This document shows positions 1-19,217 of a DNA stretch of 21,363 nt, piece after piece. The stretch spans positions 1 to 21,363 of the IMG/VR virus record IMGVR_UViG_3300024518_002241; one strand, 5' to 3'. Source of the DNA: a virus. Under the pieces are notes generated by a model. That model saw nothing but the letters and a program-made list of their open reading frames with translations, did no database searches and was not told the origin of the DNA. Made by a program: the position numbers and the translations under genes. Numbering within the stretch: the stretch's first letter is position 1; each line of letters begins with the position of its first letter.

Positions 1-121
1 TGGGGTTGGATGGGGTTGACCCCGTCCTGCCCCCCCCCACCAGCCCCCCGCCGGGCCTCGGTGGCCTCGAGCGTCTGGCCGCAACCCCTTGCCCCTGCTC
101 GGCCTACCGTCAAGTTTCCCA

Positions 122-150
122 TTGATCCGCGCCAAATTTGCCGATAGATA
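122..150 (+). promoter_or_regulatory. Candidate sigma70-like promoter of the left operon
   Basis: TTGATC (122-127) and TAGATA (145-150) are separated by exactly 17 bases. The -35 box matches four of six consensus bases and the -10 box three. The predicted transcript start near 157 coincides with the first base of a perfect hairpin and lies 40 bases before the first start codon with a good ribosome site. The positional fit is the main support, because the boxes themselves are weak. Confidence 0.3.
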
Positions 151-156
151 GGACGC

Positions 157-180
157 ACCCGGGGGCATTTCTCCCCGGGT
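157..180 (+). promoter_or_regulatory. Leader hairpin before the first gene
   Basis: ACCCGGGG (157-164) pairs perfectly with CCCCGGGT (173-180) around an 8-base loop. The stem is all GC except one pair and ends five bases before the AGGAG ribosome site of the gene at 198. There is no T-tract, so it does not look like an intrinsic terminator. A hairpin at or near the 5' end of a phage mRNA commonly protects it from decay, and that role is inferred here. Confidence 0.45.
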
Positions 181-197
181 GGTTAGGAGTCCCTGAC

Positions 198-422
198 ATG
201 TCCCAAAGCTTCGAAAGCTTCATGCGTGCGGTTAACCGCTTGATCGGCAAGCGGCTTGATGGCCTTACCTCCGACGATTTCCCCGACCTCATTATGTGGC
301 ACGACGCCTGGGATGGCGGCGGATGCACTCCCTCAGAGGGGCTCGCATTGTTCCTCGAGACGATGGTAGACGAAGGCGAAATTCCGCGTGATATCGCCTT
401 CCCAAAGGGGGCGAACTCATGA
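198..422 (+). CDS. Small hypothetical phage protein (74 aa)
   Basis: The start at 198 is chosen because AGGAG lies at 185-189. An upstream in-frame ATG at 138 would place the leader hairpin inside the gene. The protein is acidic. It has an N-terminal helix with basic residues (FMRAVNRLIGKR), then a GLTSDDFPDL segment, an aromatic WHDAWDGGG turn and a C-terminal SEGLALFLETM helix. This layout resembles a group of short phage proteins of unknown function (DUF5419-like, from memory), in which a 'GLtS.DlpD...w.d' pattern is followed by an alanine/leucine helix. The stop overlaps the next start as ATGA, so translation is probably coupled. It heads the left operon, and no function can be assigned. 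Confidence 0.75.
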   Translation: MSQSFESFMRAVNRLIGKRLDGLTSDDFPDLIMWHDAWDGGGCTPSEGLALFLETMVDEGEIPRDIAFPKGANS

Positions 423-724
423 GCCATCTATCAATGGCGGCGATCCAAACATCCTTCCTAGGTCCCACGACTTATCGTGGCGACAGAATCAAGGCGACCG
501 ACGGAGGCCATCTTGACCTCCCTCCGCGCACCCTCATTAGGTCGTGGGATTTCGGCATCTCGGCGTCCGAGAATCACCGCCAAACCGCCCAAGCTTGGCT
601 GGACAAGTACAATCCCGGGAACGTCGTAGCCTTTCCCGGTCTTGGGTTCCAGCACCGTTACCTCTGGACATGGGCCGAGGCTCCCAAGCCGCACGGGGCC
701 GATATCGGGGGGGCGGACTCATGA
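419..724 (+). CDS. Conserved small phage/plasmid-type protein (101 aa)
   Basis: The ATGA overlap with the preceding gene and an AAGGGGG ribosome site fix the start at 419. Near the N-terminus is the block IQTSFLGPTTYRGDRIKA, followed in the middle by ENHRQTAQAWLDKYNP and an aromatic C-terminal strand (YLWTWAE). From memory, this 'iqT.yl.PTn.RGsRikA ... eNH..Aa..l' pattern occurs in many small uncharacterised phage and plasmid proteins, so the gene is almost certainly real although its role is unknown. It is soluble with no membrane segment. Its stop overlaps the next start as ATGA, so three consecutive genes here are translationally linked. Confidence 0.75.
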   Translation: MSHLSMAAIQTSFLGPTTYRGDRIKATDGGHLDLPPRTLIRSWDFGISASENHRQTAQAWLDKYNPGNVVAFPGLGFQHRYLWTWAEAPKPHGADIGGADS

Positions 725-1413
725 GGGGCGGGCATTGGTCGCTGGTCGAAGCATCGGAGGATCGGAAAACGGGCGGTATGCCCGTGACCTACGCGCCGAA
801 ACAGACATGCCCGGCATGCCCGATCTCGGAGGAATGCTACGCGTCAAGTGGCAAGGTCCGCATCCACTGGCAGGCCCTTAGCCTCGAGGAACGTGGCACG
901 GACTACCTTGACCATCTCGAGGCTATCTCCGACCTCGAGGGGCCCGGCCCAGCCCGGCTGCACGTCTCCGGTGATTTTCAGACCGGACCCGATGGTCGGA
1001 TCGACCGGGAAGCTTTGCGGGCCCTGGACCACGCTTGCCTCGAGTCCGGCGCCGACTGGTTTACATATACCCACCACGACCTGACCGACCGCCGTAACCT
1101 TGCCGCCGTCTCGAGTCTTGCCGGTATCGTTGCGAACGCATCCGCCAACGACCTAGGCCATCTTGACGACCTCCTAGATCGTGGCCTCCCAGCTGTAGCC
1201 GTGGTTCATTCCCGGCATGGGGGTGACGCCACGGTCATGACGCCTAAGGGCAGAACCGCCGTAGTTTGCCCGGCCTCCCGCACCGGCTCCGAGGTTACCT
1301 GTTCGAGCTGCGGCGACGGTGCCCCTTTGTGCGGTCGGGCAAACCGACCGTGGCCGATAGTCTTCCCGGCCCATGGCTCATCGAAGGCGACCTTAGATGC
1401 TTCCCGGGCATAG
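721..1413 (+). CDS. Cysteine-rich phage protein, DUF7227-like (230 aa)
   Basis: The ATGA overlap with the upstream gene fixes the start at 721; the longer frame upstream overlaps that gene and is not needed. The N-terminal half carries KTGG (16-19) and three cysteines in CX2CX5CY spacing (C30, C33, C39). HVSGDF (81-86) and DWFTYTHHD (112-120) read like strands of an alpha/beta barrel core. The C-terminal part holds C183 and a CX2CX6C cluster (C194, C197, C204), followed by WPIVFPAHG. This order of motifs fits the phage family I recall as DUF7227. The N-terminal cysteines recall radical-SAM-like phage proteins of the Gp37/Gp68 type, but the spacing is not the classical CX3CX2C. Metal binding is likely, and enzymatic activity is only inferred. 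A 190-base gap with regulatory signals follows. Confidence 0.75.
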   Translation: MRGGHWSLVEASEDRKTGGMPVTYAPKQTCPACPISEECYASSGKVRIHWQALSLEERGTDYLDHLEAISDLEGPGPARLHVSGDFQTGPDGRIDREALRALDHACLESGADWFTYTHHDLTDRRNLAAVSSLAGIVANASANDLGHLDDLLDRGLPAVAVVHSRHGGDATVMTPKGRTAVVCPASRTGSEVTCSSCGDGAPLCGRANRPWPIVFPAHGSSKATLDASRA

Positions 1414-1493
1414 ATGGTGGTTAATGGGGGTGTCGCTCCAGCTCGAAAAGCAAGGGGCGGCACCACTCGAGCCTCGATCGCCTGGCCGGGTTT

Positions 1494-1537
1494 GGCATCC
1501 CTCGAGGTATGCTGCGGCATCCCTCGAGGGATGCCGC
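1494..1537. promoter_or_regulatory. Tandem dyad operator-like site
   Basis: Two copies of a dyad occur 22 bp apart, about two helical turns: GGCATCCCTCGAGGTATGC (1494-1512) and GGCATCCCTCGAGGGATGC (1516-1534). The second sits inside a perfect 24-bp palindrome (1514-1537) whose arms are GCGGCATCCC and GGGATGCCGC around TCGA. The pair ends directly at a candidate -35 box. Spacing on one face of the helix suits cooperative repressor or activator binding. In RNA the second copy could form a hairpin ending the upstream gene, but no T-tract follows it. Confidence 0.55.
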
Positions 1538-1564
1538 TTGCAATCCCCCAGGAATGCCGATAAT
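1538..1564 (+). promoter_or_regulatory. Candidate promoter of the clamp-like gene operon
   Basis: TTGCAA (1538-1543) and GATAAT (1559-1564) are good matches to sigma70 boxes, but the spacer is only 15 bases, shorter than the preferred 17. The -35 box abuts the palindromic dyad, so a protein bound there would control it. The predicted start near 1571 leaves a leader of about 33 bases containing AAGGAG (1587-1592) before the ATG at 1604. Confidence 0.4.
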
Positions 1565-1603
1565 TGAACCGGCGTGATAGTGCGCCAAGGAGAGACTTAG
1601 AAA

Positions 1604-2236
1604 ATGCGAAACGAACCGGAATACCTAGACGCGAAAATCGATCGTGCGAACCTCGCAGCGATCGTCAAACCAACGAACACGATCTCTGCAGGGGCGTACC
1701 AGGATGACCTAGCGTTCCTCGAGAACGGAACGGCGACCACCAACGGGAAGTCTGCGATCTACGTTCCCTACCTCGAGGGTACAGGTGATCTGCAGACCAT
1801 CCAGATACCCCAAAAATCCGCCCGTTCCGTGGCCAAGCAATTCCCCAAGCGGAAACCCGTTCACGTCCAATGCGGGCCCCATGACGCCGCCGCAACACAG
1901 AGCGGCGTCCACTTCTACTCCGACGATGGCAATACCACGTCCAAAACAGAGCAGAACGACGCTAGCCGCCCGTTCCCGTCCATCGGGCACCTACGTCCGT
2001 CTCGCGACATGGACTCGATCGCTACGGTGATCCTCGACTCGAGATACCTAGCCGAGATCGCAAAAGCATTCGAATTGATGGCGGATCTACGGGCCCCAGC
2101 AGGCGCTCAGTCCCCTTTTGCAGTCACCATCCAGGTGTTCAGCGACAGAGCGGCCGTTGAAATCACCTCCGAACACGTTCCCGACGCCTACGCCCTGATC
2201 ATGCCAATCACGCCGGGAAAGGCTCAACATGCGTAG
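1604..2236 (+). CDS. Sliding-clamp-like protein (210 aa)
   Basis: The C-terminal third has the pattern of the last domain of bacterial DNA polymerase III beta: RYLAEIAKAFE (helix), VTIQVFSDRAAVEITSE (paired strands) and DAYALIMPI, which corresponds to the 'ylvMPm' end strand of DnaN. Before it, RPFPSIGHLRP resembles the 'FPdy..vlP' loop that leads into a clamp-domain helix. At 210 residues the protein is much shorter than cellular beta (about 366), so it would have to trimerise like phage gp45/PCNA or act as a partial clamp. The N-terminal part is not recognisable. It is preceded by AAGGAG at 1587-1592 and overlaps the next gene by eight bases. A role as polymerase processivity factor is inferred from local similarity only. 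No polymerase lies in this window. Confidence 0.6.
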   Translation: MRNEPEYLDAKIDRANLAAIVKPTNTISAGAYQDDLAFLENGTATTNGKSAIYVPYLEGTGDLQTIQIPQKSARSVAKQFPKRKPVHVQCGPHDAAATQSGVHFYSDDGNTTSKTEQNDASRPFPSIGHLRPSRDMDSIATVILDSRYLAEIAKAFELMADLRAPAGAQSPFAVTIQVFSDRAAVEITSEHVPDAYALIMPITPGKAQHA

Positions 2237-2528
2237 AATGACCAACCGCCAATGGTCAGCCGCCACCAGACGAGCGACCAAATCACTCCCCGACGCCTAT
2301 CGCGTCATCACCACCGACCCTCGAGGCTTCACCCTCGAGAGAATCGCCACCGGCTCAACCGTTCGCGTCACCCGCATCATGATCGACCGGACGATCGCCA
2401 CGCTGGCCGCAGGAAAGACAATCCCCAAGCGGGAGATCTCATACACGTCCGCCATCGAAGCGGCCGTCATCGCCGCAATCCCACCGACAACCATCGTCAT
2501 CACCGAGAAAGGATACTCAGCGAAATGA
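2229..2528 (+). CDS. Conserved hypothetical protein (99 aa)
   Basis: The start ATG overlaps the end of the clamp-like gene by eight bases and has AAAGG upstream. The protein is basic at its N-terminus (MRRMTNRQWSAATRRATK) and then predicted alpha/beta. A GFTLERIATGSTVRVTR strand pair is followed by the block GKTIPKREISYTSAIEAAV. I recall related small proteins in bacteria and phages with a 'G..IP.R.IsYTvAIE.aVv.al' end, none with a known function. The basic start makes nucleic-acid contact possible. Tight coupling to the clamp-like gene suggests that the two products act in the same process. Its stop overlaps the following start as ATGA. Confidence 0.65.
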   Translation: MRRMTNRQWSAATRRATKSLPDAYRVITTDPRGFTLERIATGSTVRVTRIMIDRTIATLAAGKTIPKREISYTSAIEAAVIAAIPPTTIVITEKGYSAK

Positions 2529-2614
2529 AAGAACTCGCGCAAGACATCACCGCCTGGTTATCGCTCACGCTTCTGGTCTGGGCACTCATTCAACTAGGGA
2601 GGCATTACGCATGA
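2525..2614 (+). CDS. Tiny membrane protein (29 aa)
   Basis: The sequence begins MKELAQDITAWLSLTLLVW and ends LIQLGRHYA. A single hydrophobic helix (about residues 11-24) lies between a short charged start and a basic tail. Both ends are joined to neighbours by ATGA overlaps (2525-2528 and 2611-2614), and an AAAGGA ribosome site lies upstream. Such precise stop/start linkage on both sides is unlikely by chance, so the gene is probably expressed despite its size. It could be an inner-membrane modulator of host function or a small holin-like peptide. The sequence gives no more than a membrane location. Confidence 0.6.
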   Translation: MKELAQDITAWLSLTLLVWALIQLGRHYA

Positions 2615-2871
2615 TCTACCCCAACTCACGAGATGCCTACAAAGCAGCCAAGACAGCAGCCAATGAAATCATGGCTCCCGTCATCATCGAGACCATCCGC
2701 CGGCCCCACTACTGGGAAGGTATCGCAGGATGCCCCGACGCACCTGCCTATCGGCTCACAATGGACACCACCGTACCCACCTCACGAAAAGCCAGGTACG
2801 TCATCCCTGACGCCTGGGCAGACGGCGGTAGGATCGACCATGCCGCCAACCTGATCAGGATCCCCGACTAA
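2611..2871 (+). CDS. Hypothetical protein (86 aa), last gene of the left operon
   Basis: AGGGAGG at 2596-2602 and the ATGA overlap define the start. The N-terminus (residues 1-29) is a likely amphipathic helix, SRDAYKAAKTAANEIMAPVIIETI. A WEGIAGCPDAPAYRL turn and a short C-terminal strand region with IPDAWADGGRIDHAANLIRIPD follow. There is one cysteine and no membrane segment. I do not recognise the family. It is the last open frame before the strong terminator at 2891-2927, so it closes the transcription unit that begins at the clamp-like gene. Confidence 0.6.
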   Translation: MIYPNSRDAYKAAKTAANEIMAPVIIETIRRPHYWEGIAGCPDAPAYRLTMDTTVPTSRKARYVIPDAWADGGRIDHAANLIRIPD

Positions 2872-2890
2872 CCACCGGCACCACCACCAC

Positions 2891-2927
2891 AAACACCCGG
2901 TACGCTTCACGGCTTACCGGGTGTTTT
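2891..2927 (+). terminator. Rho-independent terminator
   Basis: AAACACCCGGTA (2891-2902) pairs perfectly with TACCGGGTGTTT (2915-2926) around a 12-base loop, and one further T follows. The 12-bp stem, GC-rich core and A/T flanks are typical. It lies 20 bases after the last gene of the left operon. The A-tract on its left side would also allow some leftward termination. Confidence 0.85.
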
Positions 2928-3133
2928 CATGCCTTCCGACATCGACCGTCACCACCATCGGCACCGACCAAAGCAGGCTATCGGCCTGCCGAGCCGACCC
3001 CTTGATCGCTCGATTCTCAGGAAAACGTCCCGTTTTTTGACCGTCATAAGTCTAATGATCTCGAGACCGCTACGGCCACCGTCAGGACCACCAGAAGCCG
3101 CTAGGGGGGGACCCCCTCAGATGGGGAGCTGAA

Positions 3134-3170
3134 GTATCAAATTGATACCTGTCTCTGTTGGCAGTGTGAA
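3134..3170 (+). promoter_or_regulatory. Dyad overlapping a candidate promoter
   Basis: GTATCAA (3134-3140), a central A and TTGATAC (3142-3148) form a perfect 7+1+7 inverted repeat. Its right arm supplies a good -35 box (TTGATA). Seventeen bases further is TGTGAA (3165-3170), a weak -10. An operator placed over a -35 box is a typical repressor arrangement. The downstream transcript would enter the leftward gene cluster in antisense. Confidence 0.4.
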
Positions 3171-3210
3171 AGGAGAGTTGTTTCACATGGAACGTATGGT
3201 TGTGTGGTGA
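3165..3210 (+). promoter_or_regulatory. Hairpin with ribosome site in its loop and a 7-codon leader ORF
   Basis: TGTGAAA (3165-3171) pairs with TTTCACA (3181-3187). The loop holds GGAGAG, and the start codon at 3187 sits at the stem edge. The open frame reads MERMVVW and stops at 3210. A strong ribosome site, a start codon and a minimal ORF suggest a translated leader peptide, with initiation tuned by the hairpin. No following gene on this strand is visible, so the role is unclear. Confidence 0.3.
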
Positions 3211-3372
3211 AGCGGTCAGCCCCCAGTCAAGGCTCTGGGGGGGGGGTGGGGGTTATCAGCCGATGAGGCTTCCTGGGGGAATATTCTGGGGTAGGAATGC
3301 TCGTGCTCCCCTCTGCTCCCCGCACTTCGCGCCGCCGCCTTCCCCAGTTAAGACCGGCTGGCCTGAAGAATC

Positions 3373-3395
3373 AAGCGTCAGGAAGTCACGCTTTT
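3373..3395. terminator. Weak, possibly bidirectional terminator at the end of the leftward cluster
   Basis: AAGCGT (3373-3378) pairs with ACGCTT (3388-3393) around a 9-base loop. On the plus strand the stem ends in TTTT. On the minus strand it overlaps the stop codon of the last leftward gene (stop at 3386-3388) and is followed by a short AT-rich stretch. The stem is short, so this is only a candidate. Confidence 0.3.
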
Positions 3396-3562
3396 GGTTC
3401 GCTGGTGTGTGTGTTTGCGTAACAGTGGCGGCAGTAGCCGGTTACGGCGGAAGATTTTAGGACGAGCGGTGCTTTGCATGAGATGCACTTTGGCCTGTAG
3501 TCCCTTGGGAACTGGACAGGTATCCGTCTGACGGCGTTCCTGATCTGTCTGTTTGAGGCCAT
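3386..3562 (-). CDS. Small zinc-ribbon protein A (58 aa)
   Basis: The start at 3562 has an AAAGGA ribosome site about eight bases upstream; a longer frame to 3613 is possible. The N-terminus is basic (MASNRQIRNAVRRI). It is followed by two CX2C knuckles (C26/C29 and C44/C47) separated by 14 residues, the spacing of a treble-clef or zinc-ribbon fold. The segment RPKCISCKAPLV aligns with RKKCDACNVPLV in the gene at 4181-4345, and TGYCRHC aligns with YGLCAYC. The two are therefore paralogues in one leftward cluster. It probably binds one zinc ion and contacts nucleic acid or a protein such as RNA polymerase, which is inference. The stop codon lies in a small hairpin. Confidence 0.65.
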   Translation of the reverse strand: MASNRQIRNAVRRIPVQFPRDYRPKCISCKAPLVLKSSAVTGYCRHCYANTHTSEPKA

Positions 3563-3652
3563 CCTGGTTGTCCTTTTGAATGAAAAGGGGGTCCTGTCGC
3601 GGCGAGCAGTCACGGCAGAACCCCCGGGGCACAGCAGGTTGCAAGACGGAGC

Positions 3653-3784
3653 CTACTGTGCCCGCACCTTCTCTTCCGTCGTTCCCATCGTCTTCATCGT
3701 GTACGGGTTGGGCTGTGGGTGCCCGACGACATGCAGTATCAGGTCGATCTTGGCTTCGATGCTCTCGAGTGTGCTGGTCGTCAT
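3653..3784 (-). CDS. Small hypothetical protein (43 aa)
   Basis: The start at 3784 has AGGATGG seven bases upstream. The in-frame codons at 3928 and 3937 lack a visible ribosome site and would add a glutamine/glycine-rich stretch. The protein opens with an amphipathic helix (STLESIEAKIDLILHVV) typical of short coiled-coil phage proteins, then a proline-containing tail ending in EEKVRAQ. No cysteines or membrane segment are present. It lies between the two zinc-ribbon genes on the same strand, and its function is unknown. The call rests on start context, helix pattern and position, so it is only moderately supported. Confidence 0.4.
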   Translation of the reverse strand: MTTSTLESIEAKIDLILHVVGHPQPNPYTMKTMGTTEEKVRAQ

Positions 3785-3950
3785 TTGTGTTCCATCCTGA
3801 GCATGACTGCTGGCCTGGCCCAATGCTCCGGGTTGATCAGAGGGTAGATTTGTCTGCAATTCTTGCTGCAGAACAACCCCGACGGCGCCGATCGGATCAT
3901 CCTGACCCTGGCTAAGCCTTTGAAGCATGTGGCGCACAGGTCTATTGGCC

Positions 3951-4184
3951 TCATGTCGGCTCAGGGAGGTCGAAAAGACCCGATACCCATCCTACCCCTT
4001 CGGAATCCTCCGACTCTGAAGAGTCGGGGGTCTCTGCCGGGGGGGCTGGCTCTTCAGGGGCCGGGTCGGGGGTGGGGGGGGCCTCTTCCTCGAGAGGGGC
4101 CTCGTCCACGGGGGGGTGGGAAGGGAGAGGCGGGTAGCAGGAGGAGCAGCCTTTGATCGGGTCAACGTGGTAGTTACAGCTCAT
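3951..4184 (-). CDS. Acidic proline-rich protein with a Cys/His N-terminus (77 aa)
   Basis: The start codon at 4184 overlaps the stop of zinc-ribbon B as ATGA, and AGGAC precedes it. The first 16 residues carry C3, H6, C13 and C16 (MSCNYHVDPIKGCSSC), a possible single zinc site. Residues 17-62 are a low-complexity stretch rich in proline and glutamate. The C-terminus WVSGLFDLPEPT is hydrophobic and could be a docking peptide. The acidic disordered linker between a metal-binding head and a short C-terminal motif suggests an adaptor, or a DNA-mimic style inhibitor of a host protein. That is speculation from composition only. The G-rich plus strand at 4021-4130 is the complement of this linker. 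Confidence 0.55.
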   Translation of the reverse strand: MSCNYHVDPIKGCSSCYPPLPSHPPVDEAPLEEEAPPTPDPAPEEPAPPAETPDSSESEDSEGVGWVSGLFDLPEPT

Positions 4185-4345
4185 GGGTTTGTCCTGCAGT
4201 AGGCACAAAGTCCGTAGGATTCGGAGGTTTTAGACACGAGGGGTACATTGCAGGCGTCACACTTCTTCCGTGTGTTCCGAGGGTCCAAGAGTTTGCGGAC
4301 TTGGCGTCGGCAATCCATACGAACTGTCGGTGGCTCTGCGCTCAT
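4181..4345 (-). CDS. Small zinc-ribbon protein B (54 aa)
   Basis: From the ATG at 4345 the protein has C29, C32, C47 and C50 as two CX2C knuckles. It aligns with zinc-ribbon A from the RQVRK/RQIRN basic helix to the CX2C ends. A second start at 4318 (MDCRRQVRK) would give 45 residues and fits that alignment equally well. Neither start has a strong ribosome site. The stop is ATGA-linked to the next leftward gene. It is the first gene of the leftward cluster, and a minus-strand terminator hairpin lies just upstream (4364-4394). Its transcription may therefore depend on read-through or on a promoter inside that element. A role as small regulator of transcription or packaging is possible but unproven. 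Confidence 0.6.
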   Translation of the reverse strand: MSAEPPTVRMDCRRQVRKLLDPRNTRKKCDACNVPLVSKTSESYGLCAYCRTNP

Positions 4346-4363
4346 GACGCGAAGCTTACCACG

Positions 4364-4394
4364 AAAAAGACGCCCGGCGGTTGGTCCGGGCGTC
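4364..4394 (-). terminator. Minus-strand terminator/attenuator before the leftward genes
   Basis: Read leftward, GACGCCCGG (4394-4386) and CCGGGCGTC (4377-4369) form a perfect 9-bp GC-rich stem with an 8-base loop, followed at once by TTTTT (4368-4364). This is a textbook intrinsic terminator on the minus strand, only 18 bases before the ATG at 4345. It may stop antisense transcription coming out of the terminase region, or it may attenuate the leftward cluster if its promoter lies to the right. Confidence 0.7.
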
Positions 4395-4422
4395 ACGATC
4401 GAGAGGTTGCGCGTGCTTGGGA

Positions 4423-4451
4423 TTGCAGCGACTTGGGTGACGGATGATACC
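4423..4451 (+). promoter_or_regulatory. Candidate promoter for the late (virion) operon
   Basis: TTGCAG (4423-4428) and GATACC (4446-4451) are separated by 17 bases. They lie about 54 bases before the small terminase gene, in the gap between the leftward cluster and the rightward virion genes. Both boxes are weak, so a phage-specific factor or a different site may be used. Confidence 0.25.
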
Positions 4452-4504
4452 ATCGGGCGCGGTAAGAATGCAGTCCTACCGTTTGGAGATATCGGAGATC
4501 GTTG

Positions 4505-4846
4505 ATGCAGGCCGTGAAAAAGGCGAGGCCAGTGCCTTCTATGGATGGGGTTCAGGACCTCTCCTCCAAGAAGATGGAGTCCATCCGAAGGGCGATGTTC
4601 GAGGCTCTGGAGGTCGAAGGCCAGGAGGGCCTGACCAAGTTTCGAAGCCACTACAAGATGCTCTTGGCCTATGGGGTTCTCGCCGGGGCCAAGATGAAGG
4701 ACGAGATACAGACCGGAGCAGAACTCGCTCGGCTCGAGGGATGGCGTGTTTCTCCGACAGCCGTGAAGAACAACGACATCGGAGAGGACGAACTTGTCGC
4801 AAAGCTTCGAAGTAGGTCAGACAGCGGATCGAATCCGACTGCGTGA
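4505..4846 (+). CDS. Putative terminase small subunit (113 aa)
   Basis: GGAG at 4494-4497 lies seven bases before the ATG at 4505. The protein is largely helical: KKMESIRRAMFEALEVEG and TKFRSHYKMLLAYGVLAGAKMKDEIQTGAELARLEGW suggest a helical core. The C-terminal tail is charged (DELVAKLRSRSDSG). The assignment rests mainly on position directly before, and overlapping, the large subunit, and on the size of small terminase subunits. Such proteins form rings that recognise viral DNA and stimulate the large subunit. No clear helix-turn-helix can be picked out by eye. It shares 53 bases with the large subunit gene, which has its own ribosome site inside this one. Confidence 0.6.
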   Translation: MQAVKKARPVPSMDGVQDLSSKKMESIRRAMFEALEVEGQEGLTKFRSHYKMLLAYGVLAGAKMKDEIQTGAELARLEGWRVSPTAVKNNDIGEDELVAKLRSRSDSGSNPTA

Positions 4847-6407
4847 GAAGTACACCCGTGAAGAAGACTCCTTCTTCGAATTCACCAGAGATGTTGTCGG
4901 GTTCCCCGATCTCGACCCTATCCTGCATCGTCAGGTTTGTAAGTTCCTCGTGGACGGCCTCGAGGCAGAGGAGGACATCACAATGCTCCTCCTCCCCCGA
5001 AAACACCTGAAGTCGAGCGTCACCTCGATCTCATTCCCCCAGTACCTCTGGATGCTCATCAATGCCTGCTCAATACAGTTGATGCACGGCAAGAAGGATT
5101 CAGGGAAGAAGTACCTCGGGGAACTGAAGGGATATGTCCTGAGGAAGATCAATGCACTCAGGTTCATGGCCCCAGATGTCTTCCCTGCGGACCCAAGACA
5201 TCACAAGGACGTAGAGTGGCTCTCCGAATACGTCGTCATGCTTCGGGATATGCCAGACAAGGCACCCTCTCTTCTTGTCAACGGAGTCGATGGAGATGAC
5301 ACAGGTCTCCATTTCAATATCCAACTTCTCGATGACCTCGTGACGAAGCAGAACTACAGAACTCGAGGGGAGAGGAACAAGGTCTACAACGTCATCCGAT
5401 CTCAGATACCGATGAGAAAACCATTCATCGGACCCAGCGGGAAATTGGTGCCCGGGAAGATTTTCATCGTAGGGACCAGGTGGCACAAAGATGATGCCTA
5501 TGGGCGTCTCCTCGACCCAAAGGGTGAGCACGCTGGACAGATCCGTGCGATGGTCATGGACTGCTACGACAAGAATGGAGAACCCATCTACCCACTTCGT
5601 GAGGGGAAGAAGATGGGGCACACAAAGAAGACACTCGAAGCAGACAAGAAGAACATGGGGTCGGCTCTGTTCAACGCCACCATGCGGAACAAACCGACCC
5701 TCAAGAAAGATGCCTACTTCGATACGAGACAGGCGCGACGGTTCATGATGTCGCCTGATGGGAGCATCCCAGCCCCAGGGAAGAGGTGGATATTCACCGC
5801 GTGTGATCCGAACAACAACACGACCCTCGGAGGGGACGCCGGGGTAACCATGACTGCGATCTGTACAGAAGATGGTGGCCTGTGGGTTGTTGACATCCTT
5901 CGAGGACGACCGTCTATCACTACCCTGATCTTCTGGATGGTCGATTCTGTGCGGCGATGGGACTCGTCTGCTCTTCTTATCGAGTCGGTAGGTTTTCAGA
6001 ACCAGTTGCAACACCCTCTCAGACAAGCCATGCTTAGAGAGGGAATCCAATGCGAGGTCATCCCTGTGAAGCGTGGGGGTCGAAACTCGCTGTCAAAACA
6101 GGAGCGCATATCTTCACTGCGCTTTCCGCTGGAAGCCGGGGGGCTTCATGTGAGGGAAGGCGCTGATGGAGATTGCCTCCTGTCTGAACTATCTACGTTC
6201 CAGCCAGAAGTGAGAGACCAGGAAGACGATCAGCTTGACTGCCTGGCCGATATCTATGAGCTGGCCCGTGAGCGGATAACTGTTGTTGATGGGACCAAGC
6301 CGAAAAGTCCCGAAGTGCGTCTCGAGGACTCGATCATGCGTGAGTTAGGGATCGCGCCTGATGGACGAAGCTTTGAATCTCTATCGGGGGCAATGAGATG
6401 GCCGTAA
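4794..6407 (+). CDS. terL: Terminase large subunit (537 aa)
   Basis: This is the ATP-driven DNA packaging motor and genome-cutting nuclease. The ATPase domain shows a Walker A-type loop LLLPRKHLKSS (65-75), a Walker B strand ending LLDD (178-181) and a coupling motif IVGTRWHK (225-232). The nuclease domain, of RNase H-like fold, has its acidic residues in FTACDPN (D338), LLIESVG (E397) and QEDDQLDCLAD (D478/D479, D482). The length is normal for the family. The start is TTG at 4794 with GGAGAGG at 4781-4787; no in-frame ATG exists before the Walker A region, so the TTG is needed. The gene overlaps the small subunit by 53 bases and the portal gene by ten, as expected for coupled synthesis. Confidence 0.95.
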   Translation: MSQSFEVGQTADRIRLREKYTREEDSFFEFTRDVVGFPDLDPILHRQVCKFLVDGLEAEEDITMLLLPRKHLKSSVTSISFPQYLWMLINACSIQLMHGKKDSGKKYLGELKGYVLRKINALRFMAPDVFPADPRHHKDVEWLSEYVVMLRDMPDKAPSLLVNGVDGDDTGLHFNIQLLDDLVTKQNYRTRGERNKVYNVIRSQIPMRKPFIGPSGKLVPGKIFIVGTRWHKDDAYGRLLDPKGEHAGQIRAMVMDCYDKNGEPIYPLREGKKMGHTKKTLEADKKNMGSALFNATMRNKPTLKKDAYFDTRQARRFMMSPDGSIPAPGKRWIFTACDPNNNTTLGGDAGVTMTAICTEDGGLWVVDILRGRPSITTLIFWMVDSVRRWDSSALLIESVGFQNQLQHPLRQAMLREGIQCEVIPVKRGGRNSLSKQERISSLRFPLEAGGLHVREGADGDCLLSELSTFQPEVRDQEDDQLDCLADIYELARERITVVDGTKPKSPEVRLEDSIMRELGIAPDGRSFESLSGAMRWP

Positions 6408-8191
6408 GGCGTGGTTCCTCTGCTTGGCTGAAGACGCTGCTCGATTATTTCGACGGGTACAAAGAAGAGTTCGAGCCGTTCTGGGCAACGGTCGATGAAC
6501 TCTACAGACCGTCTCAATTCGAGAAGAACCAGGATGTGACTTACGACAGAGTCGTCCAGCAAGTCAAACCTGGATACGTCTACTCCTTCGTTCACGGGAT
6601 CGAATCTATGATCCTGGCGAACAACCCGAAGCTCTTTGTCCAGGGATACCCCGCTCGGTTCGAAGAGAACTTCGTGCCCCATATACAGGATGTCCTAAAC
6701 CGAGACTGGACATTGCATGGCCGGATGGGCGGGGAGGTGAGGCTATGTGTCCGTGACGCGATCAAGAAGGGCGTGTCGGCTGTCGAAACAACGATCGTTT
6801 CCAGCGGCGAGAGAAAGGATGAGATCGACTCCAAGGAAGACGACGAACTCATTCGTGCAATCGGGGCGCAGCTTCGGTCTGAAGATGCAGCCATCGAGGC
6901 CAGGAAAAGTCAGCCACCTGTAGAGCGCACCTTCGAACACGACTCTCGGGTCATGGTTGACCAGATCGTGACCAAGTTCATACCGATTGAGCACTTCGTT
7001 TGCGACCCTGATGCGAACAACAACTACGACTGGAAGTGGGCAGGTACAGGGTTCTGGGCAGACCTTGACCGGATGAAGAAAGACGACCGTCTTCGCAACG
7101 TGGGCAAACTTGAAGCCACGCATATGCCTGAGGGAGCAATGTCTGGGGGGGACTCACCAATCAACCTCGTGTACATGCACAGGATGTACTACGCGCAAGA
7201 CGACCACTGGAGGATGTGCCTATACAACCGCGAGCATGAGGTGATTGTCCTCAAAGAAGAAGACCCGTTCTGGATCGGGTGCCCAATGCGGACCTTGTCT
7301 TGGAACACTGACGGTAGGTCGCTGTATGGTCAGTCAGATGTCTTGCCAGTTGTCAGCCAGATATCACAGCTTCATACCCTGTACAGCAAGACAACGGATG
7401 CCTTCGCAAGGCAGTCACAGAAAACGACCTTCTATGACCAAGCAGCAGGCATACCAGATGCAACATTGAACGCGATCATGGACCCGTCTGGTAACAAGTG
7501 GGTGCCCATAAACAGGTCTTCTGGGCAACCGCTTGCCGCGTCGTTCTACGAGCCTATGCACGGGAACATCTCTCCTGAGGCGATGAACCTGATCATGCTC
7601 CTCGAGCGTTCAATACAGCAGAGCGCAGGCATGTCCCCAAGTCAGATGGGCCAGATCATGAAGTCTGACACCTCTGCCCAAGAAGCCGCTCAGCTAAAAG
7701 CTGGGTCTGATGCCCGCGCTTTGCATAAGTTCGAAGCTGTCGAGGAGTTCATCGGGGCTGTCGCTCAACAGAGACTGGGCCTTATGGCCCAGTTCTACGA
7801 CGCAACGAAGGTCGCAAGGATCGGTGGACCTAAGGCTGCAGAAGCCTGGGAACATCTCGACTGGACAAGGGAAGACGTTCAGCACGGTCTCAACATCAAG
7901 GTCGAACCTGGGAGCACCAGGTCAGTGAACGATGACACGCGGACAGAGCAGCTCCTGAATGTGCTGCGCCTCGTCGGGCAAGATCCGGGGGCAGCGATGC
8001 TCATAGACCGCGAAGAACTTTACCGTAGGTTGTTTAAGCACATGGGTTTCCATGACTCAGGAAACCTTGTTCGGAACAAAGAAGAGGTAGCAATGATCAT
8101 GCAGCGAGCAGCGCAAATGCAAGCTAACCAGCCTCAACCACAGCAAGGCGCACCATCGAGGCCACCCCAGCCGCAGGGTGCTCAAAGATGA
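6398..8191 (+). CDS. Portal protein (597 aa)
   Basis: It forms the dodecameric ring at one capsid vertex through which DNA passes and to which terminase and tail bind. The N-terminal part is alpha/beta (LDYFDGYKEEFEPFWATVDELYRPS). The middle holds the typical clip and stem region with GRSLYGQSDVLPVVSQISQ, as in short-tailed phage portals. The SGQPLAASFYEPMHGNIS and MSPSQMGQIMKSDTSAQEA segments follow, then long helices of the crown. A glutamine/proline-rich tail closes the protein. The size is within the normal range. It follows the large terminase with a ten-base overlap, the standard order. Its stop overlaps the next start as ATGA. Confidence 0.9.
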   Translation: MAVRRGSSAWLKTLLDYFDGYKEEFEPFWATVDELYRPSQFEKNQDVTYDRVVQQVKPGYVYSFVHGIESMILANNPKLFVQGYPARFEENFVPHIQDVLNRDWTLHGRMGGEVRLCVRDAIKKGVSAVETTIVSSGERKDEIDSKEDDELIRAIGAQLRSEDAAIEARKSQPPVERTFEHDSRVMVDQIVTKFIPIEHFVCDPDANNNYDWKWAGTGFWADLDRMKKDDRLRNVGKLEATHMPEGAMSGGDSPINLVYMHRMYYAQDDHWRMCLYNREHEVIVLKEEDPFWIGCPMRTLSWNTDGRSLYGQSDVLPVVSQISQLHTLYSKTTDAFARQSQKTTFYDQAAGIPDATLNAIMDPSGNKWVPINRSSGQPLAASFYEPMHGNISPEAMNLIMLLERSIQQSAGMSPSQMGQIMKSDTSAQEAAQLKAGSDARALHKFEAVEEFIGAVAQQRLGLMAQFYDATKVARIGGPKAAEAWEHLDWTREDVQHGLNIKVEPGSTRSVNDDTRTEQLLNVLRLVGQDPGAAMLIDREELYRRLFKHMGFHDSGNLVRNKEEVAMIMQRAAQMQANQPQPQQGAPSRPPQPQGAQR

Positions 8192-8700
8192 CATCAAGCG
8201 ATGATGGATGGGGAGTCCCGCTCCACGAGATCCCGACGAAAACACTCGAAAATGGGACGGAATTCAAGGAGTGCGCGGATGGCACAATATGGGTGCGCCA
8301 GGAGAAGGGGAGGTGGAGGAGGTCTGACCGGATGCGGTTACCACTTGCGCCAAGGGTCTTTCCAGCCGTACACTACGTCAACGAGCAGTCAGACGGGAGA
8401 ACGTGTAAGTTCGACACCGGACCCCGAAACGATCGCAAGGAGCAACCTTGCCTCCATGTCTATGCAGACGAGGTTGCGAAGCAAGAATGGCATGACTACG
8501 TTGTTATGCCTGACGGAAGAGAAGGGCCAGCACCCTTTTCTTCAAGTTCAGAGCGGGCAGAGTATGAGAGCCGATTCGGGTATCGAGGGCTCGACAAGGA
8601 TGAAGTTCACGATCACCCGCTAGACCAATTCCTTCGCCAGGAGGGGTCGTCCCTCCGTCGAGGAGACTTCACCAACCATGGAACAGGTGTCGAGGACTAA
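8188..8700 (+). CDS. Hypothetical head-module protein (170 aa)
   Basis: The start is fixed by the ATGA overlap with the portal gene. The protein is hydrophilic and predicted mostly beta in its first half: a FKECADGTIWVRQEKGRWRRSD stretch looks like a small beta-sheet with basic residues. A central segment carries two cysteines, and an acidic end contains DKDEVHDHPLDQFLRQEG. I do not recognise the family. Placement between portal and scaffold suggests an accessory head protein, or one taking the place of a maturation protease, but no Ser-His or other protease motif is visible. The end overlaps the scaffold gene by 23 bases. Confidence 0.7.
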   Translation: MTSSDDGWGVPLHEIPTKTLENGTEFKECADGTIWVRQEKGRWRRSDRMRLPLAPRVFPAVHYVNEQSDGRTCKFDTGPRNDRKEQPCLHVYADEVAKQEWHDYVVMPDGREGPAPFSSSSERAEYESRFGYRGLDKDEVHDHPLDQFLRQEGSSLRRGDFTNHGTGVED

Positions 8701-9643
8701 TCATGAAGAATGGACATCCCAAGAAGGTCCCGCTGATCCCCAACTCGGGGCCGGGGGTCAAGACTTGCATCAAGCCGACAACGGGGCCGCAGCACTAAAC
8801 GAAAGTCCCGGTGCGCTACAGTCTGATCCGCTCGATGGGTACGAGCCTGTTGACCAGGCCGGTCCCATCGAGCGGATGGACCAACCCCCACTTCATCCTG
8901 ATGCGGAAATCCCACAAGGTGATCCGCTGGAAGGTTGGAATGGGAACATCGAAGACCTGAGCCCTGATGTTCAGCCTTTAGCCCGAAGCCTTCAGTCCCA
9001 CTACCAGAAGGGATTCCAGCAAAACGCCGCAGCCTCGAAGGAGACTGACATGCTGGCCCAGAAGGCTGCAGCATTCGACCAGCTAATCACTGACCCGAAC
9101 AAGCGCAGCGAGTTCATGTCAGGGTTTGGGGATACCTCTGCATCTGGACCCCAAAGCCATGGCATGTGGCATGACGATGACCTCGAGTCTGTTGATGCCA
9201 AGTCGCAGTTCGATGATCCCACCTACCAGGGTGTCGAGGCGATGATTTACAAGGCGTTCAAGTCAAGGCTTGAGCCTGAACTGCAGCGGCTGAATGCTTT
9301 GAGCAATTACTCTGCTCAGCAAACTATGAAGAACCAGTGGGATTCACTGGTTAGCCAATACCCGTCAGCTTCGCAGCACGCGAATGCTGTCGCCGCAAAA
9401 ATGCAGGCGAGTCCGAATCTCAGCTTGCAAGAGGCCCTTTTCGCAGTGGCCGGTCCTTCCCTACTCCAAGCAGCGCACACGACTCCTCCCAAGGGACGCA
9501 GCAACGGAACGCAGCAGAGGCAAGGGATTCAGTACCGGGCAGACGCAGGGTCGCGTCGTCCTGCTTCCAAAGCGGCTCCATCGTTAGAGGCGATCATCGC
9601 CTCCTCGAGGAAGCAACTTGGAATTCAGGAGGGCATGTTCTAA
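8678..9643 (+). CDS. Capsid scaffolding protein (321 aa)
   Basis: Scaffolds guide assembly of the procapsid and leave before or during packaging. The evidence is position directly before the capsid gene and composition. The N-terminal 90 residues are acidic and disordered, rich in Asp, Gln and Pro. A helical, glutamine/alanine-rich middle follows (LARSLQSHYQKGFQQNAAASK, AAAFDQLITDPNKRSEFMSG). A basic C-terminus (GRSNGTQQRQGIQYRADAG, SRRPASKAA, SSRKQLG) matches the capsid-binding tails of P22-type scaffolds. No protease signature is visible, so the head probably matures without a fused protease. GGAG upstream is 12 bases from the ATG, a rather long spacing. It ends 27 bases before the capsid gene. 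Confidence 0.85.
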   Translation: MEQVSRTNHEEWTSQEGPADPQLGAGGQDLHQADNGAAALNESPGALQSDPLDGYEPVDQAGPIERMDQPPLHPDAEIPQGDPLEGWNGNIEDLSPDVQPLARSLQSHYQKGFQQNAAASKETDMLAQKAAAFDQLITDPNKRSEFMSGFGDTSASGPQSHGMWHDDDLESVDAKSQFDDPTYQGVEAMIYKAFKSRLEPELQRLNALSNYSAQQTMKNQWDSLVSQYPSASQHANAVAAKMQASPNLSLQEALFAVAGPSLLQAAHTTPPKGRSNGTQQRQGIQYRADAGSRRPASKAAPSLEAIIASSRKQLGIQEGMF

Positions 9644-9670
9644 CCGAAACCCCTTGGGAGGAGTTTTCCA

Positions 9671-10819
9671 ATGGCTACCGCAACTAGGACAGGGGCTGGT
9701 GCATACACCACTCTCTGGACTCACGTTCTTGATCAGTGGCTCACTCCGGGCTACGCCGAGGACATCATCTCGCGGCACACACCTACCCTGAACCTTCTCT
9801 GGAAGAACAGGAAGCGTGTTCCGCTCGGGCCATACGCCAACGTGCGTTTGCTCGACAAGCTTGGCAACGCAAACGGTGCGTTCCAGTATTACGACGCGCT
9901 TACTGGCCGCCCCCAGCGGGGCGCACAGGCGGCGCAGTTCCAATCGAAGATGTACTACGCGAACATCTCGATGTCCTTGCAGGAGGAGCTGGACTACGGG
10001 GTCTCTGACCTCATGTCCGCTGACCGAATCAAGGAACTGACTACTCAGGAAATCATGGGCTTGAGCGATACCCTCGCACAGGCAGTGTTCCAGGGTACGA
10101 ACCTCGGGGCTAAGCACATGCTTGGTTTCGAGCAGGAACTCCCGGCTTTCGACCATGAAGCGAATGACGGGACGACGGCGTCCGCGCTGGCTCGTATCGG
10201 ATCGCGCTTCCGCGTTCGCCAACAGAACGGCTCGACCTACGGCGGCGTTGACCGCGCTGACTGGACGAGCGCGACTGCTGGAGGCACCGGCTGGGAAGCC
10301 AACTCTGTCCAGATGGTCGACAATGCGGACAACATCTTCCGCTTCCACTCGACTGAGCCTTACGGCCCTGACAAAGGACTGGCGGTGTTCTACCAGATGC
10401 TGCAGTTCACTTGGTGGGGCGCTGCTTCCCGTCGTATCGTTGTTGGGACTCAACGCCCTTACGACGACTACATGTTCGCAGTCATGGGCAAGACGCTCTT
10501 GACTAAGGACTCAGCCAGCACGCCTGACGCTCAGCCGTTCTTCGCTAACCTGGCGCTGCCGGGTGCGACGTTCTACTTTGATGAGTACGCAGCGCACTCT
10601 GGTGGTGACGATGTCACTGCTGGAAATTCTGAGTGCTTCTACATCTTCGACCCGAACTACTCCAAGCTTTGGGTCGATCCGCGTGCTGAGATGAAACTCA
10701 CGAAGCCTCGAGTGCCGGAAGGTCAAGAGGCGAGTACGCGCCGCGTGATCCTTCGTTGCCTGAAGGCAAATACAAACCCGCGTACTGGTGCGTGTGGCTT
10801 CAACTACTTTGACGGTTAA
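9671..10819 (+). CDS. Major capsid protein (382 aa)
   Basis: A strong GGGAGGAG site precedes the ATG. The N-terminus is small and alanine/threonine-rich. Next come a helix and E-loop-like region (ILTS-free but with WKNRKRVPLGPYANVRLL), an ANISMSLQEELDYGVSDL block and a long helix (SADRIKELTTQEIMGLSDTLAQAVFQG). This resembles the N-arm, E-loop and spine helix of HK97-fold coat proteins. The C-terminal half is beta-rich (RRIVVGTQRPYDDYMFAVMGKTLL, TFYFDEYAAHSGGDD, KLWVDPRAEM), as expected for the P and A domains. The size is typical. Its place after the scaffold and before a decoration-type gene supports the assignment. No cleavage site for a maturation protease can be identified. Confidence 0.9.
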   Translation: MATATRTGAGAYTTLWTHVLDQWLTPGYAEDIISRHTPTLNLLWKNRKRVPLGPYANVRLLDKLGNANGAFQYYDALTGRPQRGAQAAQFQSKMYYANISMSLQEELDYGVSDLMSADRIKELTTQEIMGLSDTLAQAVFQGTNLGAKHMLGFEQELPAFDHEANDGTTASALARIGSRFRVRQQNGSTYGGVDRADWTSATAGGTGWEANSVQMVDNADNIFRFHSTEPYGPDKGLAVFYQMLQFTWWGAASRRIVVGTQRPYDDYMFAVMGKTLLTKDSASTPDAQPFFANLALPGATFYFDEYAAHSGGDDVTAGNSECFYIFDPNYSKLWVDPRAEMKLTKPRVPEGQEASTRRVILRCLKANTNPRTGACGFNYFDG

Positions 10820-10834
10820 GAAAGGAGACTGATC

Positions 10835-11344
10835 ATGTTCACAATTCCTCAAATTTCAGGTCGGACTCCTCAGTCTGACGACGAACTTGCGTCCGATGGG
10901 CGCACCATCTACGGCCTGTTCGAGGCCAACGGCAACATCGCAGTCGGTGAGCCGATCAAGCACGACGTAACCGTCACCAATGCGTCAGGCGTTCTTGTCA
11001 TCGTCACCGCAGCGGCGACTGAGGACTACTACTGCCGTGGTGTCTACTCTGGCCTCGGGGGTTCCTCGGCGGAATCCACCGTGACCGATGCCGACGGACT
11101 GTGGGATGCCAAAGACGGCGACCACATTTTCGTCGCCATGTCAGGGCACCAGAAGGTGATGGTCAACGCCAACAGCGTCAACATCGTGGCTGGCGACATG
11201 TTGGAACTGCAAGCCGGTGAAGCTGGGCGGTTCTACAAGGATGCCGCCGTCGCTGCTCAGTCGTCACGTCACTGCGCACGGGCTCTGGAGGCCAACGCCT
11301 CTGACGATGCACTTTGCGACGCTTGGATTGCCAACTGCCTCTAA
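10835..11344 (+). CDS. Probable capsid decoration/stabilisation protein (169 aa)
   Basis: AAGGAG lies close before the ATG at 10835. The protein is small, acidic, glycine/alanine-rich and largely beta (VTVTNASGVLVIVTAAATEDYYCRGVYSGLGG, KVMVNANSVNIVAGDMLELQAGEAGRFY). It sits directly after the capsid gene, where decoration proteins that clamp the lattice are usually encoded. The VAGDMLELQAGEAGRF strand pattern resembles phage head proteins of the capsid-cement type, but no diagnostic motif is seen. It ends with an unusually cysteine-containing tail (CARALEANASDDALCDAWIANCL). The stop overlaps the next ATG as TAATG. Confidence 0.6.
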   Translation: MFTIPQISGRTPQSDDELASDGRTIYGLFEANGNIAVGEPIKHDVTVTNASGVLVIVTAAATEDYYCRGVYSGLGGSSAESTVTDADGLWDAKDGDHIFVAMSGHQKVMVNANSVNIVAGDMLELQAGEAGRFYKDAAVAAQSSRHCARALEANASDDALCDAWIANCL

Positions 11345-11562
11345 TGGGTGCAAAAAGCCCTACGATGAACACGATCATGCGCTGTGTGCGGTGCTACCAC
11401 GCCGCCCCAGTGCGTGAGTTCACCAGGAAACCGGGCGGCTGCAAAAAGTGCCTCGGCATGCAAGTCAGCCGCCCGGCGGGCCGACACCCGCGATTCGGGG
11501 GCAGAGTGTGGGAACGCCTTGTCAAGTTCCCACTTCTCAAGAGAAAAGGATTCACCCTGTGA
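11344..11562 (+). CDS. Small zinc-ribbon protein C (72 aa)
   Basis: The TAATG junction with the upstream gene fixes the start at 11344. Two CX2C knuckles (MRCVRC, C14/C17; GGCKKC, C33/C36) are separated by 15 residues and followed by a strongly basic tail (SRPAGRHPRFGGRVWERLVKFPLLKRKGF). The spacing resembles the zinc ribbons of the leftward cluster, so this is a third family member or a convergent one. Sitting inside the head module it could be a packaged minor virion protein or a DNA-binding assembly factor; both are inference. The ATG at 11365 is an alternative start. Its TGA overlaps a GTG start of the next gene. Confidence 0.65.
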   Translation: MGAKSPTMNTIMRCVRCYHAAPVREFTRKPGGCKKCLGMQVSRPAGRHPRFGGRVWERLVKFPLLKRKGFTL

Positions 11563-12035
11563 GCGAGCATATCATCGAGGTCAAGACGACCAGATACACT
11601 AACCGGATTGTCGAGAACGAAGACGAGCGCACAGTCCCGGTCCAGTTCTATGACTACTACGTCAGGGCTGATCGCGGAGATTTCCGTCGTGTCAAGCAGA
11701 CAATCGACTGGAAGCTCGATGAGTTCAACGTGGCGCATATGATTTCATCGACAACTGATCTTCAACCGGAGAGAGGAGCCCCGGTCCTTGACTGGGAGGA
11801 AGTCAACAAGTGCTACGATATGATGGAGAAAGAAGACATCTCCGTCATCACGGCAGTAAAGAGACTCTTCGGTGACGAGGAGATGAACAGTGGATGGCTT
11901 CAGGACTGCGTTGAGTGCAAGCTCTATAAATGGAAGCCTGTCGAGCCTCTTATCGTGACCCCAGGGACAGAGCGCATAACGTCTCCAACCCCTGAGGCCA
12001 GGATGGTCTCTGCAGCTCCTCGCGTTTCGGACTAA
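11559..12035 (+). CDS. Hypothetical virion-module protein (158 aa), GTG start
   Basis: The GTG at 11559 overlaps the preceding stop as GTGA and has AAAAGGA about nine bases upstream. Earlier in-frame starts would lie inside the zinc-ribbon gene. The product has an N-terminal beta region (HIIEVKTTRYTNRIVENEDERTVPVQFYDYYVRAD) and a helical part with EEVNKCYDMMEKEDISVITAVKRLFGDEEMNSGW. A WLQDCVECKLYKWKP segment with two cysteines and a proline/threonine tail follow. I do not recognise it. Its location between the decoration protein and the adaptor suggests a minor head protein or head-completion factor. Confidence 0.7.
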   Translation: MSEHIIEVKTTRYTNRIVENEDERTVPVQFYDYYVRADRGDFRRVKQTIDWKLDEFNVAHMISSTTDLQPERGAPVLDWEEVNKCYDMMEKEDISVITAVKRLFGDEEMNSGWLQDCVECKLYKWKPVEPLIVTPGTERITSPTPEARMVSAAPRVSD

Positions 12036-12047
12036 CGAGGTGGAAAG

Positions 12048-12806
12048 ATGGCAGCGGTTGAATCAATTACGGTCGGAGACCTGGTAAGCGATGTTCGCTT
12101 CATCTTGACCAACTCCTCCGCTGCCGACTCTGACCTTGACACTCAGATCAAGGTTTGGCTGAACGCGACCATGAGGGACATGATTGCGCGTTCAGAGCAC
12201 CCCAGCTTCACCATGGAAGATGTGATGAAGCTGAGCGCCGGGACTCAGGACTACGACCTCCCAGGTGATTATGGTCGGATGATTGAGCCCGGTGTCCGTC
12301 ACTTCAGAGAAGGTGACTCGATGCTGACGGTGAAGTACATCACTCAGCCGACTTATGACGAGCATGAGGGCGCGAGGTGGTGGACTGATACAGGAATCCC
12401 GACTCACTACACGTTCACTGGCCGAGAGAAAGAGACCCAGGGCACGTTCAAGGTCCGGTTCTTCCCGATCCCTGATGAGCCCTACCAGATCAAATACAGC
12501 TACTACGGCATACCGGAAAACATCCGCGCTGCCGCAGACTCTGTAGAGATTGATCGCCGCTTCCCTCGAGAGCTTGTCCATGTCCTGGTCACTGGGACAT
12601 GCCTGTACTTCCCGAAATACCTTGCCGGTCACCTTGCGACCTACAAGGAGAAGTACGCAGAAGCCCTTGCTTCTCTTCAGAGAAACTCGAGGCCGCTCGT
12701 CGGTGGGTATCAGCAGTCGAGGAGAATGGATGGGATCTCTTCTTTGGGTGGCAGCGTCCTGGTTCGTGGGAGCATTGATATCAGTGACCAGGACAACCAC
12801 TTCTGA
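12048..12806 (+). CDS. Head-tail adaptor protein (252 aa)
   Basis: GAGGTGG lies just before the ATG. The protein opens with TVGDLVSDVRFILTNSSAADSDLDTQIKVWLNATMRDMI, the usual start of short-tailed phage adaptors, in which two helices pack against the portal. A TQDYDLPGDYGRMIEP block and a beta region (TFKVRFFPIPDEPYQIKYSYYGIP) follow. The C-terminal part is helical (RELVHVLVTGTCLYFPKYLAGHLATYKEKYAEALASLQ). This order fits P22 gp4 or T7 gp11-type adaptors, which join the portal to the nozzle. The stop overlaps the nozzle ATG as TGATG, further supporting a direct functional link. Confidence 0.8.
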   Translation: MAAVESITVGDLVSDVRFILTNSSAADSDLDTQIKVWLNATMRDMIARSEHPSFTMEDVMKLSAGTQDYDLPGDYGRMIEPGVRHFREGDSMLTVKYITQPTYDEHEGARWWTDTGIPTHYTFTGREKETQGTFKVRFFPIPDEPYQIKYSYYGIPENIRAAADSVEIDRRFPRELVHVLVTGTCLYFPKYLAGHLATYKEKYAEALASLQRNSRPLVGGYQQSRRMDGISSLGGSVLVRGSIDISDQDNHF

Positions 12807-18066: not shown

Positions 18067-18293
18067 TGTCGCATAAGATCGCACTCTATACGCACGGTCG
18101 CCTTTCGACTTACCGGGACGAGGAGACGGGGGCGCTGGTGTTCAAGGACACGCAGACGGGGATCGAGTACGGCCCTCCTCCGATGATCGAAGACCTGGAG
18201 GAGATGGTGGTATTCCTTATGGCCGCGATGGTCGAGTCATCCCCATCAGGATCGACTTTAGGTTCATTGTTTGGGATGATTGAGAGGACGTGA
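18066..18293 (+). CDS. Small fibre-associated protein (75 aa)
   Basis: The stop of the fibre gene overlaps this ATG as TGATG. The protein starts with strands (KIALYTHGRLSTYRDEETGALVFKDTQTGIEYGP) and ends in a helix (DLEEMVVFLMAAMVESSPSG). It shares the GC-rich base use of the end of the fibre gene, so the two probably moved together. Small proteins directly after a fibre gene are often fibre assembly chaperones or tip proteins. That role is inferred from position only. Confidence 0.65.
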   Translation: MSHKIALYTHGRLSTYRDEETGALVFKDTQTGIEYGPPPMIEDLEEMVVFLMAAMVESSPSGSTLGSLFGMIERT

Positions 18294-18324
18294 TGTGCAT
18301 TCAAATTTATTTGGAGTCTGAACG

Positions 18325-18669: not shown

Positions 18670-18678
18670 GGAGCAGTC

Positions 18679-19140: not shown

Positions 19141-19217
19141 GGAGCCCTAAGGCAAAGCAGTCTATACCTGAGTCGTTTCCATTCGGCATGGGACTGTATC
19201 GAGTGGGGGTTAGTGCT

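Follow-up and report, generated by a model that had tools for sequence, protein, structure and literature searches.

The hexamer CTCGAG as a possible highly iterated palindrome in the early module of a phage contig

The viral contig IMGVR_UViG_3300024518_002241 (21,363 bp, analysed in full and here called the window) contains 36 copies of the palindrome CTCGAG by exact search, of which 16 start within positions 66–3060 and the other 20 lie elsewhere. In this left block, where its density reaches 5,160 per Mb, the hexamer may behave like HIP1, the highly iterated palindrome (HIP) of cyanobacteria: the reading that we favour, with a probability of roughly 0.55, is that CTCGAG is a HIP1-like palindrome carried by an early phage module which came from a DNA pool favouring this word. 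It also appears somewhat probable that the excess is a property of the hexamer at the DNA level, rather than the product of coding accidents or of one repeated phage operator, because it is hexamer-specific, occurs in all frames and in intergenic DNA and is independent of codon use, because the Leu-Glu pairs it encodes are not shared with homologues, and because its sequence neighbours are scarce and homologous loci show no excess.

An earlier note on this DNA, made from the letters alone, had counted 16 sites in 66–3065 and 20 in the remainder, had described the left block as enriched many-fold and had reported at least eight copies of an extended octamer. Both counts and all listed coordinates proved correct, and the octamer CCTCGAGG occurs exactly eight times, at 882, 933, 1500, 1522, 1771, 2319, 4958 and 9603. 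An order-1 (dinucleotide) Markov model predicts 1.1 sites for positions 1–3100, so that the 16 observed are a ~14-fold excess, and 9.3 for the rest, where 20 are seen; the milder excess of the right block had gone unremarked in the note. Order-2 models predict 1.3 (left) and 8.8 (rest), and order-3 models 3.4 and 12.4; the order-4 expectation (11.5 left, 20.1 rest) draws on pentamers contributed by the CTCGAG sites themselves and so lacks independence. When all 64 palindromic hexamers were compared in this way, as the note had proposed, CTCGAG showed the largest excess both in the whole window and in the left block. Given 36 sites, the probability of finding 16 in any 3 kb is 0.0005 (scan statistic). 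The reversed word GAGCTC, of equal base composition, does not occur in the window, and the left block has few one-mismatch neighbours of CTCGAG (22 vs 38 expected).

Neither codon use nor reading frame predicts these numbers. Synonymous-codon shuffles gave 1.95 sites in left genes, against 11 seen, and 6.7 in right genes, against 17 seen, with none of 2000 shuffles reaching the observed count in either set, which upholds the earlier claim that codon bias alone is insufficient. Sites are found in all three frames, both in left genes (8/1/2 vs 1.6/0.05/0.29 expected) and in right genes (7/3/7 vs 4.3/0.7/1.6 expected), and the left non-coding DNA holds another five in 556 bases. Eight of the 11 left sites within genes are read in frame as Leu-Glu codons, and all eight Leu-Glu pairs of the left-block proteins are spelled CTCGAG, a result with a chance of ~3e-6 from codon use. 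Furthermore, the Leu-Glu pair itself is over-used in these proteins (8 vs 2.6 expected). Four of the five CTCGAG sites in the gene encoding the DUF7227 protein (721–1413) specify Leu-Glu pairs, at residues 55, 66, 72 and 107, and these are present in only 1, 0, 4 and 0 of 80 homologues, respectively. Because every left Leu-Glu is CTCGAG and the DUF7227 pairs are nearly absent from homologues, the hexamer seems, judging from these protein comparisons, to have shaped the protein sequence and not the reverse.

The 80 viral loci carrying DUF7227 were selected without regard to CTCGAG and serve as the control for this reason. Together they contain 57 CTCGAG sites vs 103 expected, i.e. no excess, and only two of them have four or more sites at more than three-fold excess, compared to 14-fold in the left block. 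These relatives are distant, with ~33–40% identity in the DUF7227 protein. In tblastn searches against phage records, matches were found at ~24% identity for TerL, ~22% for the portal and mostly 31–38% for DUF7227, and none for the major capsid protein (MCP) or the gene at 1604–2236, for whose product a phage homologue was sought without success. Exact peptide-pattern searches for relatives of TerL, portal, MCP, DUF7227 and the 1604 gene also returned nothing. A second collection of viral contigs, gathered through CTCGAG patterns and clusters and hence biased by the search, includes others with strong all-frame CTCGAG excess, and in some of these the whole-record CTCGAG/GAGCTC counts are 318/0 and 75/1. 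The first pair of counts belongs to L101, a 110-kb viral record (G035) whose sampled part is non-halophilic by charge.

Like CTCGAG here, the cyanobacterial HIP1 and alternate HIPs (GCGATCGC, GGCGCC and others; PMC4390886) are short palindromes which reach hundreds to thousands of copies per Mb in genic and intergenic DNA alike, many more than Markov models predict. Unlike them, the word studied here is CTCGAG, lies on a phage contig and is mostly confined to 3.1 kb, and its link to a methyltransferase is one of analogy. Elhai (PMC4390886) showed that cognate methyltransferases accompany HIP1 and alternate HIPs, and proposed that HIPs are created by methylation-dependent repair. By analogy with HIP1, methylation of CTCGAG and a repair drive could be at work here: in a host or lineage environment where CTCGAG is a methylated, favoured site, biased repair or selection, as in the HIP1 proposal, would create copies and retain them. 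The 3.1-kb left block would have originated in such an environment or spent more time there, whereas the right block has only a milder excess. The earlier note had offered a protein-binding site, a modified or protected motif and a segregation or condensation mark as explanations; among the three the modified motif would fit best, because the HIP pattern goes with cognate methyltransferases in cyanobacteria (PMC4390886) and because Nocardia has orphan CTCGAG methyltransferases, with motif clusters at the origin (Blow et al., PMC4752239). A condensation or segregation role may also exist. It is reasonable to infer that the host either has no active XhoI-type restriction or methylates CTCGAG.

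Several observations weigh against a HIP1-like palindrome. The left block offers a small sample of 16 sites, and no DNA methyltransferase was recognised among the phage proteins scanned, from a contig that may be partial. HIP1 is genome-wide in cyanobacteria, whereas here the density of CTCGAG falls ~five-fold across 3.1 kb, which calls for a further event (acquisition or misassembly). Moreover, the 249 Pseudomonadota, 149 Actinomycetota and 119 Acidobacteriota genomes examined yielded no clearly HIP-like one with a composition resembling that of this phage. The closest bacterial genomes are two GC-rich Acidobacteriota, G593 (~2,200 CTCGAG/Mb) and G557 (~1,360/Mb), which have 8- to 14-fold more CTCGAG than GAGCTC and a mild out-of-frame excess. 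A search of 297 Acidobacteriota genomes for DUF7227 gave no match; it had no positive control and so shows little.

A pattern scan of genomes pointed to the archaeal family Natrialbaceae. Among 79 Halobacteria genomes sampled, 16 carry 2,200–4,600 CTCGAG/Mb, 8- to 118-fold over GAGCTC, and the others carry far fewer. The rich genomes include G001, G437, G458, G478, G479, G490, G495, G497, G510 and others (loci L351, L352, L354 and L355); those that are named are Natrialbaceae (such as Natronosalvus, Natronolimnohabitans, Natrarchaeobius and Natrinema) and, extrapolating from the named loci, all 16 would belong to this family. Unselected 20-kb pieces from this group carry the HIP signature: in L351, 62 of 81 Leu-Glu pairs are spelled CTCGAG, 18 sites are out of frame vs 2.5 expected and 11 lie in 1.6 kb of non-coding DNA. 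In 20-kb pieces of several low-count Halobacteria genomes CTCGAG is avoided. The hexamer is apparently an undescribed HIP in this archaeal group; in the literature searched, no paper was found that describes CTCGAG as iterated in either Halobacteria or phages. The likeness to the left block extends to the word itself, its presence in all frames and in non-coding DNA, and the spelling of most Leu-Glu pairs. Nevertheless, these organisms are halophilic archaea, and a host among them is unlikely, since the proteins of the phage are not halophilic and its ribosome sites are of AGGAG type. A haloarchaeal host had been considered, and the pI of 8.1 of TerL, together with the ribosome sites, speaks against it.

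More tentatively, it is possible that this phage lineage and the Halobacteria group (whose named members are Natrialbaceae) both carry a CTCGAG HIP, so that HIP remodelling would extend beyond cyanobacteria and into phages, rewriting proteins through new Leu-Glu pairs that create sites, with HIP density marking phage modules that have moved horizontally. HIP1 has gone unexplained for decades. If the proposal is true, archaea, perhaps some bacteria, and phages would possess a second iterated palindrome, independent of HIP1 and matching a known methyltransferase specificity (CTCGAG); the methylation/repair model of HIP1 could be tested outside cyanobacteria, and HIP density could serve as a marker of the DNA pool from which a phage module came. 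The sharp density step within one phage contig would be a natural experiment on the pace at which sites appear.

That step coincides with a wider change. The Jensen-Shannon split of trinucleotides has its optimum at 3100–3150, and the genes of the two blocks use codons differently (p ~1e-13). The left block shows no avoidance of other palindromic hexamers (49 vs 56 expected) or of CTAG (8 vs 5.1), whereas the right block strongly avoids both (88 vs 251 expected, many hexamers at zero; CTAG 3 vs 37), CTCGAG and GATATC being the exceptions. Since it is distinct in trinucleotides, codon use, palindromes and CTAG, the left block was probably acquired recently from another DNA pool, unless the contig is chimeric. 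A chimera, in which misassembly would have joined the left 3.1 kb to a phage unrelated to it, with the signature of a separate host in each part, agrees with all of these differences and is compatible with a HIP-type origin of the left sites. We consider it unlikely, as the DNA-level CTCGAG excess is present in both parts and, in five of the 80 homologous loci, DUF7227 and a TerL of the same kind are no more than ~4 kb apart, though in a different orientation; an acquired module would, in addition, yield the same pattern.

Rather improbable is an array of operators or stoperators bound by a phage protein across the early region, with its strong operators at 1494–1537. The sites do cluster in an early-looking block, five of them in the few non-coding bases, and two tandem dyads 22 bp apart (~two helical turns) stand upstream of the 1604 gene. 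These dyads are indeed both centred on CTCGAG, as had been noted before, being symmetric at 20/20 and 16/20 positions; they are the only two matches in the window, two were found in 0/100 shuffles, and the hairpin potential of 1494–1537 is strong (fold z = -4.9). Mycobacteriophage L5 stoperators resemble the present case in that many copies of one short word are spread over a phage genome. They are, however, longer, asymmetric, directional and placed near gene ends, unlike the bare palindromes found here inside genes. The 14 left sites outside the dyads have little in common past the hexamer: except for a weak G/C preference one base outside, the information in their flanks is close to noise. 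Eleven of the 16 left sites are coding, mostly in one frame, with amino acids altered, and the right structural block has an out-of-frame excess as well. No regulator was recognised, and the 80 DUF7227 loci, distant relatives as they are, do not keep an excess with the same gene. The stoperator-like reading put forward in the earlier note is thus not supported. The array at 1494–1559, upstream of the 1604 gene, is probably a separate putative operator or origin whose dyad centres probably either coincide with the hexamer by chance or make use of it. The centre of its candidate third dyad is not CTCGAG, and no consensus promoter was found at the dyads upstream of the 1604 gene.

An origin of phage replication in the left block, using CTCGAG methylation as Dam sites are used at oriC, is more doubtful again. 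Three CTCGAG lie in 63 bases (1466–1528) of the intergenic region 1414–1603, with the strong dyads, and both skews (GC and AT) shift close to position 1500. The published Nocardia case, located between dnaA and a DNA polymerase III gene (PMC4752239), offers a precedent with an orphan methyltransferase, the same hexamer, clustering and one intergenic cluster. The Nocardiaceae clusters are non-coding and at oriC, whereas most sites here are within genes and no replication protein was confirmed beside the array, the 1604–2236 product being unmatched by PF02768. In addition, Nocardia and Rhodococcus genomes carry only ~500–1,150 CTCGAG/Mb.

Selection by a host that restricts most palindromes and spares CTCGAG as sole survivor is very unlikely: the right block does avoid nearly all other palindromic hexamers, but sparing accounts for non-depletion and not for excess, and is insufficient alone for the 14-fold figure, and the left block, which has the largest excess, shows no palindrome avoidance. 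Composition or codon bias on its own is hardly tenable, for although Leu and Glu are most often encoded by CTC and GAG in this DNA, the shuffles, the out-of-frame and non-coding sites and the complete lack of GAGCTC all oppose it.

Table 1 Features of the window.
Feature	Position	Strand	Basis and remarks
16 left CTCGAG sites	66..3065		Exact search; starts at 66, 354, 883, 916, 934, 1039, 1110, 1466, 1501, 1523, 1718, 1772, 2038, 2320, 2334, 3060
Compositionally distinct left block	1..3100		GC 0.61; 16 CTCGAG
Small early gene	198..422	+	Open reading frame (ORF) scan; weak PHROGs match phrog_519, E = 0.0067; AGGAG upstream of start; one in-frame CTCGAG, at 354
Small gene, phrog_3199 match	419..724	+	PHROGs E = 3.5e-9; 0 CTCGAG
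DUF7227 / GP88-like gene	721..1413	+	Pfam PF23872, E = 3e-46; phrog_2554, E = 3e-27
Two tandem 22-bp dyads, GGCATCCCTCGAGGTATGCTGC and GGCATCCCTCGAGGGATGCCGC	1494..1537		Repeat search; centred on CTCGAG
Candidate third, degenerate dyad arm pair, TGCAATCCCCCAGGAATGCC	1539..1558		Weak; about same 22-bp register; 2 mismatches to arms; 12/20 symmetric
210-aa gene	1604..2236	+	3 CTCGAG; weak match phrog_3007 (labelled RusA-like), E = 9e-5
99-aa basic protein, pI 11.2	2229..2528	+	ORF scan; CTCGAG at 2320 and 2334
86-aa gene	2611..2871	+	ORF scan; 0 CTCGAG; no family match
15-bp inverted repeat then TTTT, terminator-like	2891..2926	+	93% complementary; 6-nt loop; ends left transcription unit
Right block, structural genes	3101..21363		20 CTCGAG vs 9.3 expected; palindrome and CTAG avoidance
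TerL-like gene	4794–6407		Right block
P22-like portal	6398–8191		Right block
SU10 adaptor	12048–12806		Right block

The genes and other features of the window are listed in Table 1. By eye, the product of the 1604–2236 gene had given the impression of a DNA sliding clamp, which would have agreed with the Nocardia oriC case; the idea was dropped because PF02768 did not match and an AlphaFold prediction without alignment reached a predicted local distance difference test (pLDDT) value of only 30. The inverted repeat at 2891–2926 was not picked up by a terminator scan. Both GC skew and AT skew shift abruptly at the dyad array (~1500) and again near this terminator-like repeat (~2900).

Long tracts of C or G are found at 30–50, 3112–3118, 3238–3251 and 4027–4080, that is, at the left end and near the composition break. 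Beyond the break, small minus-strand ORFs at 3386–3613, 3781–3954 and 4181–4651 encode CxxC...CxxC zinc-ribbon motifs and are possibly a small paralogous family; two of them weakly resemble ribosomal L37Ae (E ~0.01–0.02).

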